Assembly: GCA_020849275.1 (NCBI GenBank)
Contig: JADLGO010000038.1
Coordinates: 1-39,863 of the forward strand
DNA length: 39,863 nucleotides
Direction: 5' to 3'
Origin: Chthonomonadales bacterium
Lineage (GTDB): Bacteria > Armatimonadota > Chthonomonadetes > Chthonomonadales > CAJBBX01
Shown piece after piece: positions 125-28,580 of the stretch; the first letter of the stretch is position 1; each line of letters starts with the position of its first letter. The position numbers and the translations under genes were made by a program. The notes under the pieces are model-generated. The model did no database searches, had not been told where the DNA came from, and saw only the letters and a program-made list of their open reading frames with translations.

Positions 125-331
125 GCGGTGTTGAGAGAAGTTCTGAGAAAAGGAGGGCGATGATCGGCAGCCGTTGACGCGAGAACACCGCGCGGCTGTT
201 CATCGGCCATGGGCAGCGGTGCGCAAGGGCGACAACTCGCGGCCCACGGAGTCCCTCGATCGCTCGGGTGGGTCGTCGGCCCTTGGCGCCGCGTGCGTCA
301 CAACCATCCATGCACATGGTACGCTAACCGA

Positions 332-359
332 GTGGCGACGTTAAGTAGACGTACGCCAC
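332..359 (-). terminator. Hairpin downstream of the four-gene pilin/thioredoxin unit
   Basis: GTGGCG at 332-337 pairs with CGCCAC at 354-359, and ACGT at 338-341 pairs with ACGT at 349-352 with one bulged base. This gives a ten-pair stem with a seven-base loop. It lies about 30 bases beyond the stop codon at 391 of the last minus-strand gene. There is no clear U-tract, so termination is inferred from position and structure only. Confidence 0.35.
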
Positions 360-390
360 CTATCGGCACGTCCGGAGGAGGGGAGACTCC

Positions 391-1005
391 TCAGCGTCCT
401 TCGGCGGCGAACTCACGCGCCCTCCGCTCGATCTGCTCCAGGCTGTGGTACTCGCCGCGCGGGTCCTGCATCCCGGTGACGCCATGGCGGCGGCAGAGTT
501 GCACGTAGGCCGCGCGGCCAGCCGACTCCGAGCCGGCACGCTGCCTGCAGTAGGAGTAGAAGAGGAAGGAGAGATGGAGCCGCCAGCCTCTGTCGAGCGA
601 GTCGGTGGCGGCCACGTACAGGGTCGGCCCGTCCGGGCGGGCGACGCCGGCCGCAGTGACGGGGAAGGTCGCGCGATCCGCCGGCATGTCCGGCGCGCGC
701 CGGACGGGGCTCGCGGCGACGCGCGGGCAGCAGTCGCGCCAGAGCGTCTCCCTCAGCATTGCGCTCACGCTCGCCTCGGTCAGGTTCAGCCGACGCAGCT
801 CCTCCGGGTCGGTCAGACGCAGAAGCTCGCGCGCGTCCAGGCGGTCGACCGCGGCCAGCGCCGTGCGCGACACGGCCTCTGGTGAGGGCGGCGCGAAGGC
901 GCGGTAGAGCGCGCCTCCGGCGAGGAGCACCACCGCGAGGACCGCCAGCCGCGTAAGGGCCTTTCGCCCCGAGGGTAACCACCGGACGGCGTTACCTCGA
1001 CCCAT
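391..1005 (-). CDS. Small membrane-anchored protein of unknown function
   Basis: 204 residues from the ATG at 1005, chosen because GGGGAGG stands just upstream; the open frame extends further but without coding character. Residues 18-37 form a single N-terminal hydrophobic segment, so the rest (38-204) is probably outside the membrane. It has four cysteines (Cys92, Cys93, Cys153, Cys171), which could form two disulfides. No family is recognised. It is the last gene of a four-gene minus-strand unit, 29 bases after the Cys-rich protein gene. Because the unit also encodes a thioredoxin-fold protein and a 12-cysteine secreted protein, a role in the same extracytoplasmic process is plausible but unproven. 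Confidence 0.7.
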   Translation of the reverse strand: MGRGNAVRWLPSGRKALTRLAVLAVVLLAGGALYRAFAPPSPEAVSRTALAAVDRLDARELLRLTDPEELRRLNLTEASVSAMLRETLWRDCCPRVAASPVRRAPDMPADRATFPVTAAGVARPDGPTLYVAATDSLDRGWRLHLSFLFYSYCRQRAGSESAGRAAYVQLCRRHGVTGMQDPRGEYHSLEQIERRAREFAAEGR

Positions 1006-1034
1006 GCCCGCACCTCCCCTCGCGTCCGGCGTCG

Positions 1035-1373
1035 TCAGTACTCGCAGAAGCCGTTGGACGTGTTGCAGGTGGCCCCCGGCTCCGGGTTGGGAGCGGCGAT
1101 GCACTCCGAGCAGTGGTCGGGGAGGCCCGGGCAGTCGTGATAGATCACCTTCTGCCGGTAGTAGCTGCAGCAGAGACTGACCCCGTTCATATAACAACAT
1201 GACCCGGGTTGGTCCTGGATCCTGTCCACATCGCATCCTGGCGGCGCCGGAGGGCAGGGGTTCCCGTGGCCGTCCGGGTCGCACCCCGGGCCGGCCAGCG
1301 CCACCTGGAGCGCGCAGCACCCGATGAGCATCACGTTGACGAGGACGTACAGACGTGATAGCCGGCGAGTCAT
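1035..1373 (-). CDS. Secreted protein with 12 cysteines
   Basis: 112 residues from the ATG at 1373, preceded by AAAGGAG; an upstream in-frame ATG at 1412 lacks a comparable site. Residues 1-27 are a signal peptide ending near ALQVALA. The mature part has 12 cysteines in about 85 residues, including two CC pairs, a C-x2-C, and Pro/Gly-rich spacers. This spacing fits a small disulfide-stabilised extracellular domain or a metal-binding peptide. There is no tryptophan, which argues against a methylamine dehydrogenase light-chain relative even though that family also has 12 cysteines. It sits 26 bases after the pseudopilin gene. The upstream thioredoxin-fold protein of the same unit may help it fold. 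No family was recognised. Confidence 0.75.
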   Translation of the reverse strand: MTRRLSRLYVLVNVMLIGCCALQVALAGPGCDPDGHGNPCPPAPPGCDVDRIQDQPGSCCYMNGVSLCCSYYRQKVIYHDCPGLPDHCSECIAAPNPEPGATCNTSNGFCEY

Positions 1374-1399
1374 CGAGGAAGCTCCTTTCTGGTAGGGGC

Positions 1400-1972
1400 T
1401 CACCAGTCCCACGGGCGGTAATCCTGGCCGTGCACCCGGACCATGTCGACGCTGCCTCCGAGCCTCAGGATGTTGAACCGAAAGATCTCCCAGCGCGGCG
1501 CGTGCCGCAGCGCGTCGATCGGCTCCGACGCAGCGTTGTGCGACTCACATCGCCGTAGCGGCAGCGCCGGTCCGCGTGCCGCCACGCCGTCGGCGAAGCG
1601 CTCCCCGCCGACGCTGTAGCCCACGTACGAGATGAACAGCCGGTCTCTTGGGTACGACCCGTGGTAGGAGGGGCAGAAGAGCACGTCGCGGCTATTGACA
1701 TAGGTCTCGAACAGGTTTGAGTTCTGTTCGTCGCTGGGCATGCCGAGATCATCGTGGTGGGCGCGGACACCGACCGTCGGCTCGGCGCCATCGTAGTCGG
1801 CCGCGTACATGGCGTAGGCCTGCCCGATCTGGCGCAGGTTCGAGGTGCAGACCGCCTCCCGCGACCGCTCTCGCACCGGCTCGAGCAGCGCGAGGATCAG
1901 CCCGGCTAGGACGCCGATGATGGCGACCACCAGGAGAACCTCGATCAGGGTGAAGGCGCGGCTTCTTTGCAT
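1400..1972 (-). CDS. Type IV-like pseudopilin (prepilin N-terminal methylation protein)
   Basis: 190 residues from the ATG at 1972, preceded by GGAGGG. The N-terminus has a short basic leader and then FTLIEVLLVVAIIGVLAG, the prepilin peptidase site and the hydrophobic helix that packs pilin and type II secretion filaments. Cleavage would fall between Ala6 and Phe7; the usual Gly at -1 is Ala. The helix is followed by SNLRQIGQAYAMYAADYD, the stretch typical of the DUF1559-like pseudopilins abundant in Planctomycetes, Verrucomicrobia and Armatimonadota. The C-terminal H-x9-DG tail of that family is degenerate here. The start overlaps the end of the thioredoxin-fold gene by 28 bases, implying translational coupling. 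Confidence 0.88.
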   Translation of the reverse strand: MQRSRAFTLIEVLLVVAIIGVLAGLILALLEPVRERSREAVCTSNLRQIGQAYAMYAADYDGAEPTVGVRAHHDDLGMPSDEQNSNLFETYVNSRDVLFCPSYHGSYPRDRLFISYVGYSVGGERFADGVAARGPALPLRRCESHNAASEPIDALRHAPRWEIFRFNILRLGGSVDMVRVHGQDYRPWDW

Positions 1973-2619
1973 CGGGCGCCCTCCGTGAGAGCCGCCAGGA
2001 AGCCCCGGTCCGTGAACGGTGAGTCGCCCGGGGTGCCGCGCGCCGCACAGCGCAGCTTCCAGGCCGGTGAGTAGAGGTAGGATCGGCCGGCCCAGAGGGC
2101 GTTGAGCCGGCGCTCGAGCCAGCCGTCGGGGTCCGTGACACACGGGGCGGTGACGCCGAGCCGGCGCAGGTAGCGCCTGGCGGCCGCCTCGGGCGCCGAG
2201 GTCAGGAGGATGAGAGACAGGCCGCGCGCGGCACACTGTCGCTGCCAGCCGGCCAGGTCGGCCTTGAGGCAACTGGCGCAATCGCCGATCGGAACGAGCA
2301 GGTAGCCGGCCCTGGCCGGTGCGGCTGCCCGGCGAACCGCCGCGCCGGTGGCGTCCGCCGGCAGGGGTGTTCCGGGGGCCGGGTCGTCGCGAAACCGCGA
2401 GGCGTGGTCGACGGCGGGCGCTCGGCGAGGACGAAGGATCGCCGCGCGCACCCGGGAGGCGAGCAACGGGTCGCGCGCGACGACGAAGGCGAGCAGGCTG
2501 ACCTCGAATAGCAGGAGCGCGGAGAGCGCGCGAACGCGGGCGCGGGCACCTTCGGAAGGGCTCCTGGCGTCCCGCCTCTCGACCGGGCTCCATATCGGGC
2601 CGTTCGCTGGGTCGCTCAT
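1945..2619 (-). CDS. Membrane-anchored thioredoxin-fold protein with CxxC
   Basis: 224 residues from the ATG at 2619. Residues 31-49 form one transmembrane helix, then a Pro/Ala-rich linker, then a thioredoxin-like domain from about residue 100. The strand-then-GDCASCL motif (Cys114-x2-Cys117) is the likely redox-active pair. It is followed by a conventional beta strand (SLILLTSAP) and a region ending with a lone Cys near the C-terminus. Length and layout resemble TlpA/MauD-like extracytoplasmic thiol oxidoreductases. I infer a role in disulfide formation or reduction for the Cys-rich proteins encoded next. It is first in its transcription unit, with a promoter candidate at 2690-2718. A catalytically inert peroxiredoxin-like fold is the alternative. 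Confidence 0.75.
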   Translation of the reverse strand: MSDPANGPIWSPVERRDARSPSEGARARVRALSALLLFEVSLLAFVVARDPLLASRVRAAILRPRRAPAVDHASRFRDDPAPGTPLPADATGAAVRRAAAPARAGYLLVPIGDCASCLKADLAGWQRQCAARGLSLILLTSAPEAAARRYLRRLGVTAPCVTDPDGWLERRLNALWAGRSYLYSPAWKLRCAARGTPGDSPFTDRGFLAALTEGARCKEAAPSP

Positions 2620-2689
2620 CACGCCCCCACGGCAACGCCCCCCGTCACGCCGGTACGACCCGGCTAGCGGGTCACTGCCGCTTGTCGGG

Positions 2690-2718
2690 AGTGTACGCGC
2701 AACTCCTGGAGGCCGCAA
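2690..2718 (-). promoter_or_regulatory. Sigma70-type promoter candidate for the 2619-391 unit
   Basis: On the minus strand, TTGCGG (2718-2713) is separated by exactly 17 bases from TACACT (2695-2690). Transcription would start near 2683, giving a leader of about 64 bases before the ATG at 2619. This is a fair match to the housekeeping consensus in otherwise G+C-rich sequence. Confidence 0.45.
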
Positions 2719-25034: not shown

Positions 25035-28000
25035 TCACCGCCCGCGCGCCGCGCGAAACCCGCCGAGATCCACGTCCTTGACCCGATTCTCCGACACCCG
25101 GTTGTCGCGCAACTCCGGCTGCGAGCCGGACTGGGTGGCGATGCCCACGCGGTTGCGCGTCACGGTATTGCGCTCCAGCACCGGGCGAGCGGAGCCGAGC
25201 ACCCCGATGCCATACTCATTGCCCGTGCAAATGTTGCCGCGCGAGGTGCCCGCGGAGTTGCCCGAGTAGGCGATGCCGCCTTCACGGTTGCTCTGGCAGA
25301 GGTTGGCGTCCAGTAGCGGCTGCGCCTTGCCGTCGAGCCCGATTCCGAAGGCGTTCTCGGCACAGGTGTTCGCCCTGGCAGTGCCCCCCAGCTCGCCCAT
25401 GTAGGCGATGCCGCACTCCTTGTTGCCCTGGCAGGTGTTGCCGTCCAGGATCGGCTGGGCCCGGTCAGCCACGTAGATTCCCTGCATCTCGTTGGCCAGG
25501 CAGCGGTTCGCGCGCGCCGTTCCTGCCGAGGCGCCGCCGTAGGCGATGCCGGCCTCTTTGTTCTCGCGACACTCGTTCGTCTCCAGGGTCGGCTGGGCCC
25601 GATCCGCCACCGAGATGCCCACCCTCCCTCCGCTGCACGTGTTCCCGCGCGCCACGCCGGCCGCATCGGCCGTGTAAGCCAGGCCGAAGTCCTTGTTGCC
25701 CTCGCACCGGTTGCCCTCCAGCGTGGGCTGTGCCCGGTCGGTCACGCTGATACCGAAGCGGTCGTTGCCGCCGCACGTGTTGCCGCTCGCAATGCCGGCG
25801 CACTCGCCCGCGTAGGACAGGCCGGACTGCTTGTTCCCCTGGCAGAGGTTGGCGTCCAGTTTCGGCGCGGCTCGGTCGGCCAGGGCGATGCCCTGCTTGC
25901 CGTTGCCGGTGCAGCGGTTCCCGTGTGCCGTGCCGGCGGCCGTCGATGCGTAGGCGATTCCGGCCTGCCGGTTGCTCTGGCAGAGGTTGGCGACAAGCTC
26001 GGGGGCGGCCGCCTGGTCGACGCTGATGCCGACCTCGGCGCCGGTGCAGGTGTTGCCGCGGGCGAGGCCGGCCGAGTCGCCGAAGTAGGCGATGCCGGCT
26101 TGCTGATTGGAGTCGCACACGTTCTCCTGAAGCAGCGGCTGCGCCCTCTTGTCCACGCCGATGCCGAAGCGGTTGGCCGAGCACCGGTTGGCTGTAGCCG
26201 TGCCGGCGGCGCCGCCCACATAGGCGATGCCGCACTCCTTGTTGCCCTGGCTGGTGTTTGTGTCGAGGGTGGGTCGGGCCTGGTCGCCCACCTGAATGCC
26301 CTGTCGGTCGTTCTGGGCGCAGGTGTTGCGCCGAGCCGTGCCGGCCGACTCGCCCAGGAAGGCGATCCCATCGCCCCGGTTCATGGAGCAGGTGTTGTCC
26401 TCCACCGCCGGTTGCGCCTTCTCGTCCACGCGGATTCCCTGCTTGCCGCTGCCGCTGCAGGTGTTGCCACGAGCGGCGCCGCTGGCCTCTCCGAGGAACA
26501 CGACCCCGCACTCCTTGTTGTCGCGGCAGATGTTGGTGTCGAGCATGGGCCGCGCCTTCTGGTCTACGTAGATCCCGTTGCTCTCGTTTCCGGTCACGGT
26601 GTTGCCCCGGGCGGTGCCCGTCGATTCGCCGACGAACACGATTCCCTCCTGGCGGTTGGCCTGCACCGTGTTGGCCTCGAGGCTGGGATGCGAGGCGCGG
26701 TCGGCGTAGAAGCCGTGGCGCTCGTTCTGCGTGCAGGTGTTGTCTCGCGCCGTGCCGGCCGACTCGCCGAAGTAGGCGATGCCGCACTCCTTGTTGGCCT
26801 GGCAGATGTTGGTCTCGAGCGACGGGCGAGCCTGCTGATCGACGTAGATGCCCTGGCGCTGGTTGCCGGCGCAGGTGTTCTTGCGGGCGACGGCGGCCGC
26901 CTTGCCCACAAGGCCGATGCCCGAAGAGCGGTTGTCGCGGCAGGTGTTGCCCTCCAGCGTGGGCGTCGCGCTCTCGTCAACCTCGATTCCGTGCCCCTGG
27001 TTGGCGGTGCACACGTTGGCGCGCGCGGTGCCCCCGGCCTCGCCGAAGTAGCCGATACCGTCGCCGCGGTTGTTCTGGCAGGTATTGCCCTCGAGCACGG
27101 GCGCCGCCTTGCCGTCCACGTAGAAGCCGTTGTTCTGGCTGGCCGAACACGTGTTGCCTCTGGCCAGCCCCGCGGACGCGCCGTAGTAGGCGATGCCCGA
27201 GTAGAGGTTGCGGACGCAGGTGTTCGTGTCCAGCACGGGTTGCGCGGTGCCGTCGAGCCGGATCCCATCCTCGCGGTTGTCCTGGCAGGTGTTGCCCTTC
27301 GCCGTGCCGCGCGAGTCGCCGGCATAGACGATCCCCGCCACCTCGTTGCCGGCGCAGGTGTTCGTCTCCAGGTCGGCGCGCGCCTGCTGCTCCGCCGTCA
27401 CGCCGGTCCAGATATTCCGCTGGCAGGTGTTGGCGCGGGCCGTCACGCGCGCGCGGCCGGCCACGTAGAGCCCGGTCAGGTTCCCCGTCGCGCTCGACTC
27501 CTCGACGGTGGCGGTCGTGTCGCCGACGATGGCGAGGCCGTGCCCCACGCGCCAGGCGCCGAAGATCGTGTCGGCGCCACCGCCCTCGAAGGAGCAGGCG
27601 CGGACCTGCGCCTCGCCCCCGGCCACGCAGACCACGGTCGCGCCGCGCTGGCCGGAGTGGACGAAGGCAATGCCGGAGGCGGAGAAGGCGCCGTTGCCCA
27701 TGAACTGCAGGCCGCAGGGCCATCCCATCAGCACGATGCGCGTGCGGTCGCGTCCCGCGCCAACGAGTTTCACCCCCTTCCAGAGGAAGACGGGCCGCGG
27801 CAGCCGGTACTCGCCGGCCTCCAGGCGCACCGTGGCGTCTGGAGCGGCGCGCTCGAGCGCGGCGGCCAGGTCGGCTCCCGCGCGCAACAGCAGATCGCGG
27901 TCGCCCGCGGGGGTGCGCGGGAGAGCCGGCGGCGGCGCGCGCACTCCCTGCTTCTCCAGAAAGGCGTGGACCGCCGCCAGCGGCGCGACGGGCACGGTGC

Positions 28001-28580
28001 CGGCCAGGTCGCCCGTGCCGCGCACCACGCCGACCAGGTCGCCGCGCACGTCCAGCACCGGCGCGCCGGGGCCCGGCGCGATCCCCTTCTCGCCCGTCAG
28101 CACGCCGCGCGCGGAGTCCAGCCGCGAGTAGAAGACGCCGCAGTTGCCGTTCGCCACGCCCTGCATCCCGCTCAACGCCACCACGCGATCGGCCTCGGTG
28201 CGCCCTGCCGCCGGCAGCGCGCGCCGGTCGCGCAGGTGCGTCTCCACCAGCGCCAGGCCGGCGTGCTCGTCCACGGCGCGCACCGTGCCCGGCGTCTCGG
28301 CGCCGTCGCCGAGCACCACGGTCAACTCCTTCGCTTCCTGCACGGCCGAGCCGGTGGTCAGGACAAGCCCGGAGGGAGAGACGAAGAAGCCGGTGGAGAA
28401 GCGGTGCTCCGGGCCTTGCTGGCCGTCGACGACGGCGACGACCGTGACGATGGCCTGGTGGCTCTGTAGCACGACGCGCGGCCAGTCGGTGGCGTCCTGT
28501 CCCGCGAGTTGGCCGGCGGCCAGGAACAGTGCCGCGGCGACGGTGACGAGCAAGGCCGGCCGCGGGCGAGGCGATGTCAT
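25035..28580 (-). CDS. Secreted HtrA-like pseudoprotease fused to a giant right-handed beta-helix
   Basis: 1181 residues from the ATG at 28580. Residues 1-27 are a signal peptide. Residues about 36-210 follow the trypsin/HtrA pattern (GFFVSPSGLVLTTGSAV; DEHAGLALVE; PGPGAPVLDVRGDLVGV), but the His, Asp and Ser positions are replaced: TTGSAV instead of TNNHVV, AGLAL instead of TDLAV, and PGAP instead of NSGGP. It is thus probably inactive as a protease. A starter region (about 230-368) leads into about 35 coils of 22-23 residues (369-1167). Each coil ends in an Asn-x-Cys type motif (Asn in all, Cys in 30) and begins with a Gly-Ile pair. Two coil types alternate (GIYVDQKA.. and GIAYFGES..). Likely a cell-surface binding or glycan-handling protein; enzymatic activity is uncertain. 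Confidence 0.88.
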   Translation of the reverse strand: MTSPRPRPALLVTVAAALFLAAGQLAGQDATDWPRVVLQSHQAIVTVVAVVDGQQGPEHRFSTGFFVSPSGLVLTTGSAVQEAKELTVVLGDGAETPGTVRAVDEHAGLALVETHLRDRRALPAAGRTEADRVVALSGMQGVANGNCGVFYSRLDSARGVLTGEKGIAPGPGAPVLDVRGDLVGVVRGTGDLAGTVPVAPLAAVHAFLEKQGVRAPPPALPRTPAGDRDLLLRAGADLAAALERAAPDATVRLEAGEYRLPRPVFLWKGVKLVGAGRDRTRIVLMGWPCGLQFMGNGAFSASGIAFVHSGQRGATVVCVAGGEAQVRACSFEGGGADTIFGAWRVGHGLAIVGDTTATVEESSATGNLTGLYVAGRARVTARANTCQRNIWTGVTAEQQARADLETNTCAGNEVAGIVYAGDSRGTAKGNTCQDNREDGIRLDGTAQPVLDTNTCVRNLYSGIAYYGASAGLARGNTCSASQNNGFYVDGKAAPVLEGNTCQNNRGDGIGYFGEAGGTARANVCTANQGHGIEVDESATPTLEGNTCRDNRSSGIGLVGKAAAVARKNTCAGNQRQGIYVDQQARPSLETNICQANKECGIAYFGESAGTARDNTCTQNERHGFYADRASHPSLEANTVQANRQEGIVFVGESTGTARGNTVTGNESNGIYVDQKARPMLDTNICRDNKECGVVFLGEASGAARGNTCSGSGKQGIRVDEKAQPAVEDNTCSMNRGDGIAFLGESAGTARRNTCAQNDRQGIQVGDQARPTLDTNTSQGNKECGIAYVGGAAGTATANRCSANRFGIGVDKRAQPLLQENVCDSNQQAGIAYFGDSAGLARGNTCTGAEVGISVDQAAAPELVANLCQSNRQAGIAYASTAAGTAHGNRCTGNGKQGIALADRAAPKLDANLCQGNKQSGLSYAGECAGIASGNTCGGNDRFGISVTDRAQPTLEGNRCEGNKDFGLAYTADAAGVARGNTCSGGRVGISVADRAQPTLETNECRENKEAGIAYGGASAGTARANRCLANEMQGIYVADRAQPILDGNTCQGNKECGIAYMGELGGTARANTCAENAFGIGLDGKAQPLLDANLCQSNREGGIAYSGNSAGTSRGNICTGNEYGIGVLGSARPVLERNTVTRNRVGIATQSGSQPELRDNRVSENRVKDVDLGGFRAARGR
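25083..27476 (-). repeat. Tandem coil repeat, about 35 units of 66-69 bp (138-bp alternating super-repeat)
   Basis: Inside the giant beta-helix gene, the coding sequence repeats every 66-69 bases, and every second coil is more alike, giving a roughly 138-base super-repeat. The coils are diverged rather than identical, so the array is old, but ten-to-fifteen-base identical patches (around the ACCTGCCAGAGC-type NTCQ codons) occur. Such arrays can expand or contract by recombination. Confidence 0.85.

Follow-up and report, generated by a model that had tools for sequence, protein, structure and literature searches.

What could occupy four neighboring genes that encode a thioredoxin-like protein, a pseudopilin, a small secreted protein crowded with cysteines, and a membrane protein? 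This question is raised by a locus in the window, by which we mean the whole stretch of DNA analyzed here, 39,863 nucleotides that make up an entire contig (C38) of a 4.8 Mb, 99.9% complete Armatimonadota genome of the order Chthonomonadales. An earlier note on this DNA had proposed that a dedicated oxidoreductase folds a disulfide-rich component of a pseudopilin-related structure.

Layout of the unit and its surroundings

The four open reading frames all lie on the minus strand and are closely packed, with a 28-base overlap between genes 1 and 2 and gaps of 26 bases (genes 2/3) and 29 bases (genes 3/4), and their coordinates bear out the order of products as first described—thioredoxin-like protein, pilin, Cys-rich protein, and membrane protein (Table 1). 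The start of the window is also a contig end. The flanking signals proposed in the earlier note held up only in part. Its promoter TTGCGG-N17-TACACT is exactly present but matches the sigma-70 consensus at just 7 of 12 positions, it scores under the threshold of a promoter scan, and the pattern with up to 3 mismatches allowed fits no more often than chance would predict. Similarly, hairpins do lie behind the unit, but a terminator scan found no terminator-like site. As evidence that the unit stands on its own, both signals were therefore rejected.

Table 1. Positions of the four genes and of the proposed flanking signals in the window.
Feature	Position	Strand	Basis
Gene 1, membrane-anchored thioredoxin-fold protein (by homology), 224 aa	1945..2619	minus	Redoxin/AhpC-TSA_2 homology, CxxC C114-C117
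Gene 2, short pseudopilin of cassette-specific clade, 190 aa	1400..1972	minus	Prepilin motif, tree
Gene 3, Sec-type secreted Cys-rich protein, 112 aa	1035..1373	minus	Signal peptide, 12 mature Cys
Gene 4, single-TM protein with probable extracytoplasmic NTF2-like domain, 204 aa	391..1005	minus	AlphaFold model, structure alignments
Proposed promoter TTGCGG-N17-TACACT	2690..2718	minus	Exact match present, weak
Hairpins at 3' end of unit, without U-tract	330..399	minus	z -2.5

Two further features of the window are recorded here in their own right. A short direct repeat, GGACATTATCGCTGAGCA, occupies positions 77-119 at the contig end beside the unit. Elsewhere (25035-28553, minus strand), a protein of 1172 amino acids combines a trypsin-like domain with right-handed beta-helix repeats, and its 39 cysteines, one per ~23 residues in these repeats, form a cysteine ladder.

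Recurrence in the home genome and across the Armatimonadota

The unit in the window represents one of several copies of a cassette conserved in the Armatimonadota. Searching the home genome with gene 4 revealed homologs on four other contigs (C42, C50, C60, and C54), so that three complete cassettes (C38, C50, and C60) stand beside two sets cut by contig ends, one with a pilin, a Cys-rich protein, and two membrane proteins in tandem (C54) and one with a Cys-rich protein and a membrane protein (C42). Three of these five copies are close to contig ends. At C50 and C60 as well as in several relatives, the thioredoxin-like gene shares 4 bases with the pilin gene, an arrangement that is often found (e.g., L049, L050, L057, L059, L061, and L065).

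A profile of 12 thioredoxin-like proteins from Chthonomonadales found matches in 40 of 291 Armatimonadota genomes and a wider profile of 26 rows in 96 of 291, the weakest matches of the latter probably being ordinary thioredoxin-fold proteins; a contig scan with a 4-row alignment retrieved 3 loci only, all in metagenome-assembled genomes close to the home genome. Reading the neighborhoods around the best profile matches yielded 89 thioredoxin loci in 60 genomes. A pilin and a Cys-rich gene are present at 59 of these loci and all four genes at 48, with the membrane protein family widened by iterated profiles and the Cys-rich gene of L104, L198, and L063 credited under an earlier criterion. The complete sets are distributed over 41 genomes, 30 genera, and 9 families of the 291 genomes surveyed. 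Another genome of the home genome's own family, G005, carries a cassette, too. Conservation of the four-gene order, which the earlier note had named as decisive, is clear: 45 of the 48 complete sets follow the order of the window, the exceptions being L059 (membrane protein first) and L105 and L163 (Cys-rich gene before the pilin). Since the thioredoxin search used no information on neighbors, this conserved neighborhood is an independent result.

Controls point the same way. Secreted Cys-rich open reading frames (at least 8 Cys, at most 1300 bases from the thioredoxin gene) lie downstream of it at 54 of 83 loci versus upstream at 2 of 79, and on the opposite strand at 3 of 83 and 1 of 79, respectively. 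None of 30 non-cassette pilins of the home genome has a thioredoxin-like, NTF2-like, or sense-strand Cys-rich neighbor. Cassette remnants with frameshifts or stops occur in four genomes (G015, G008, G005, and G017), which indicates that cassettes are gained and lost. In the single-contig genome G015 (about 3.44 Mb), the thioredoxin frame of locus L099 is broken and the pilin is retained, and we found no Cys-rich or membrane protein gene there.

The four proteins

The product of gene 1 has one N-terminal transmembrane segment at about residues 28-48 and a CASC motif of the CxxC type. The window protein itself (P0001) reaches thioredoxin-fold families in Pfam only below threshold. In the 12-member alignment of its family (A1), Redoxin matches 5 of 12 members (best 3.1e-06) and AhpC-TSA_2 matches at 1.6e-06, and it is through homology with these relatives that we assign the protein to the thioredoxin fold. 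Both cysteines of the motif, whose absence in homologs would have refuted the idea of the earlier note, are retained in 12 of 12 homologs in the order and in 43 of the 48 complete sets phylum-wide. Among 91 thioredoxin-like homologs, however, only 66 have the full CxxC, 14 keep the second cysteine only, 4 the first only, and 7 neither, though a few deficient entries are truncated open reading frames. Loss is mostly confined to families f29 and f6 plus parts of f1 and f25, and it affects 5 of 11 sets without the membrane protein versus 5 of 48 with it (Fisher p 0.014, confounded by ancestry). At L105, L106, L110, L115, L153, L160, and L163, the first cysteine is gone, mostly with the second kept, and the Cys-rich gene still adjoins. 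A second, TlpA-like redoxin frame (FFCGCGAC) lies immediately upstream of one cassette (L100:422-742, G062).

The position of the cis-proline, as placed by alignment, is occupied by glycine in the window protein and by glycine or valine at all 14 A1-type loci (Chthonomonadales families f1, f2, and f3), whereas most other families keep proline. This is unusual for a working oxidoreductase. With the position placed by alignment only, we speak of a thioredoxin fold and not of an active oxidoreductase. In DsbA and thioredoxin, changes of the cis-proline have led to stabilized mixed disulfides or metal binding. The interpretation in the earlier note is supported in part: judging from their sequences, most cassettes could plausibly use a dedicated dithiol oxidoreductase to fold a pseudopilin-linked Cys-rich component, but the missing CxxC in part of the homologs means that this mechanism is not universal.

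The second product is a pseudopilin by its N-terminal motif: it carries a class III signal, matches N_methyl (PF07963) at 8.8e-07 with 28.7 bits against a cut-off of 21.2, and passes the TIGR02532 cut-off, too. Its cysteines are Cys42, Cys100, and Cys142, the first two at positions common to cassette pilins and other pilins of the home genome. Cassette pilins are short (median 191 amino acids, versus about 260 for most others), and a tree places 47 of them, drawn from the whole phylum, apart from 31 other home-genome pilins with no exception (SH-like support 0.836), arguing for an old, dedicated clade. A comparison of the cassette pilin with plasmids gave no match. The home genome has 84 N_methyl matches in total, and 79 pseudopilins have been reported for Fimbriimonas ginsengisoli (PMC4072686).

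The third product, whose mature part keeps 12 cysteines after loss of a signal peptide that holds 2 more (14 in total), is confirmed as a small secreted 12-Cys protein. Its family has no match in Pfam or NCBIfam and is thus undescribed in the libraries searched. Membership in the MauA family was rejected, as 11 cassette Cys-rich proteins gave no match to it in Pfam (up to E 10 for the window protein and E 1 for the ten others). Within Chthonomonadales, these proteins share a frame of C-C-C-C, then CC plus an aromatic residue, and then about four further cysteines. The number of mature cysteines ranges from 6 to 17 and is even in 48 of 58 proteins (p=4.5e-7) or, after removal of similar sequences, in 45 of 55 (p 2e-6), p values that are optimistic because related sequences are not fully independent. 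The rule used to cut the signal peptide misplaces several cuts and so creates odd counts, and it scored the window protein at 14 instead of 12. Fixing a crude cut at residue 24-28 reduces the even excess (38-40 of 55) and fixing it at residue 30 abolishes it (32 of 55), as would be expected if genuine cysteines that follow short signal peptides are lost. Counts that stay even and change in twos are what paired disulfides predict, supporting a disulfide protein. From linkage only, we infer the rest of the original proposal, in which the Cys-rich protein is a substrate of the thioredoxin-like protein and a component of a pilus-like structure. An AlphaFold model of the Cys-rich protein was poor (pLDDT 60 from a 3-row alignment), and we assign no fold to it. 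As sole query, the Cys-rich protein returned only weak matches, so linkage was shown via the thioredoxin-like and membrane proteins.

For gene 4, the AlphaFold model (5-row alignment) reached pLDDT 78 and pTM 0.72. The best Foldseek match of its soluble part was 3gwr, weak at E 0.06, and VIA-align gave scores in the middling range (Z 6-8, top 8.1) to the N-terminal domains of PBP2a/PBP3, CaMKII-AD, and ketosteroid-isomerase-like folds. These matches agree with an NTF2-like domain but do not settle it, and we describe the protein as a membrane anchor with a probable NTF2-like domain. Tandem or Cys-less NTF2-like copies were observed at L051:2877-4087, L056:4039-4753, and L057:7500-8213, some of them beside broken frames.

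What the cassette may do and how it relates to known systems

The recurrence of the four genes suggests a dedicated, undescribed machine that makes and displays or exports disulfide-knotted proteins. With slightly better than even confidence, we favor a cassette for the production and handling of a small secreted protein rich in disulfides, in which a folding and pseudopilus module serves a fast-evolving passenger. The Sec pathway would export the Cys-rich protein, and the membrane-tethered thioredoxin-like protein would form or reshuffle its disulfides outside the cytoplasm. This candidate catalyst would be translated just ahead of the pilin and be coupled to it. The dedicated short pilin would enter a type II secretion or type IV pilus machinery and carry, display, or export the folded Cys-rich protein, and the NTF2-like protein, tethered to the membrane, may hold or guide one of the partners there. 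The home genome has both an oxidative route and a secretin-based export engine, since it encodes one VKOR (oxidizing), one DsbD_TM-type protein (reducing), and 3 secretins besides the prepilin motifs. We infer which product acts on which, in what direction the thiol chemistry runs, and whether the Cys-rich protein is displayed or released, all of which go beyond linkage and conservation. Our preferred explanation is weakened by the incomplete CxxC of about one in four thioredoxin-like homologs, by those CxxC-deficient loci that still have a Cys-rich gene beside them, by the glycine or valine in place of the cis-proline in the home order, and by the poor AlphaFold model of the Cys-rich protein. 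Much more tentatively, these cassettes may together form a phylum-wide pseudopilus system with interchangeable passengers, each cassette supplying a pseudopilin, a disulfide catalyst, and a membrane holder of its own for a hypervariable protein knotted by disulfides, which would be loaded onto a shared type II/type IV pilus engine, unlike the secretion systems described so far.

Evolutionary distances help to weigh other explanations. Across 26 complete sets, the thioredoxin-like protein, the pilin, and the membrane protein show co-varying distances (rank r 0.36-0.41, p 0.001), and the distances of Cys-rich and thioredoxin-like proteins co-vary weakly (0.22, p 0.001). It is unlikely, though worth considering, that the Cys-rich protein is a permanent cap or tip subunit of a cassette-pilin pseudopilus for surface attachment, folded by the thioredoxin-like protein. 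The pilin and Cys-rich genes adjoin even where others vary, as in the tandem pilin-Cys pairs of L065 and L106, and the third cysteine, C142, is found in 14 of 16 cassette pilins versus 7 of 34 others, but there is hardly any co-variation between the distances of the two proteins (r 0.13, p 0.055) and the pilin does not adjoin the Cys-rich gene in L105 and L163.

We consider it quite improbable that the Cys-rich protein is a defensin-like antagonist of neighboring bacteria, exported and folded by the pilin and the thioredoxin-like protein, with the NTF2-like protein providing immunity. A small, secreted, and fast-diverging protein (mean identity within the order 0.22, versus 0.38 for the pilin) would fit this role, as would extra copies of the membrane protein like the tandem pair at C54 or those without a Cys-rich gene at L056 and in the second L057 set. 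However, the membrane protein is undetectable in several cassettes (L101, L115, L153, and L160), and its distances do not co-vary with those of the Cys-rich protein as partners should (rank r 0.04, p 0.28), a test that is weakened by saturation of the Cys-rich distances. Taken together, the co-variation results are a mild argument against a toxin and its immunity protein and in favor of a conserved machine that handles a rapidly changing passenger.

The chance is slim that the thioredoxin-fold protein is a metal or redox sensor or carrier instead of a folding catalyst, with the Cys-rich protein binding metal. The home order without cis-proline, the second CxxC cysteine that stays when the first is lost, and the general ability of Cys-rich proteins to bind metal agree with such a function, but a signal peptide together with even cysteine counts fits paired disulfides, and the genome encodes VKOR. 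Finally, chance proximity of four genes without a joint role is refuted by conservation over 9 families and by the controls on Cys-rich gene placement, pilin neighbors, and the pilin tree.

Returning to the preferred reading of a passenger and its handling machine, the cassette assigns defined partners and a job that can be tested to one pilin clade of the Armatimonadota, a phylum with very many pseudopilins without known roles. A new bacterial family of small secreted proteins rich in disulfides is introduced as well, whose candidate folding catalyst is genetically linked and which may be a source of stable knotted scaffolds. Cassette thioredoxins that lost the first cysteine or the cis-proline offer a natural series on how this fold works or is being retired.

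We found no description of the cassette in the literature within reach of our search, which did not extend to the full texts of most subscription journals. One close parallel is MauD/MauE, where a membrane-linked thioredoxin-like protein is needed for the methylamine dehydrogenase light chain MauA, a small protein of the periplasm whose 12 cysteines form 6 disulfides. Both systems place a thioredoxin-like gene near a small 12-Cys protein, but the cassette has no MauA match, MauE, or dehydrogenase large chain and instead includes a pilin and an NTF2-like protein. DsbL/DsbI is a disulfide catalyst dedicated to a neighboring arylsulfate sulfotransferase, similar to the candidate catalyst gene beside a putative substrate gene that linkage and even cysteine counts suggest for the cassette, though it consists of DsbA/DsbB-type proteins and has no pilin. 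In type II secretion, DsbA-dependent cargo gains its disulfides before crossing the outer membrane, and its pseudopilins share the class III signal with the cassette pilin, but the cassette joins pilin, oxidoreductase-like protein, and putative cargo in a small unit repeated in the genome. The abundant DUF1559-type and prepilin-type pilins of the Armatimonadota share the N-terminal methylation motif and the Cys42 and Cys100 positions with cassette pilins, which are shorter and form their own clade. The unit is new as a combination, built from parts that are known folds except for the Cys-rich family.
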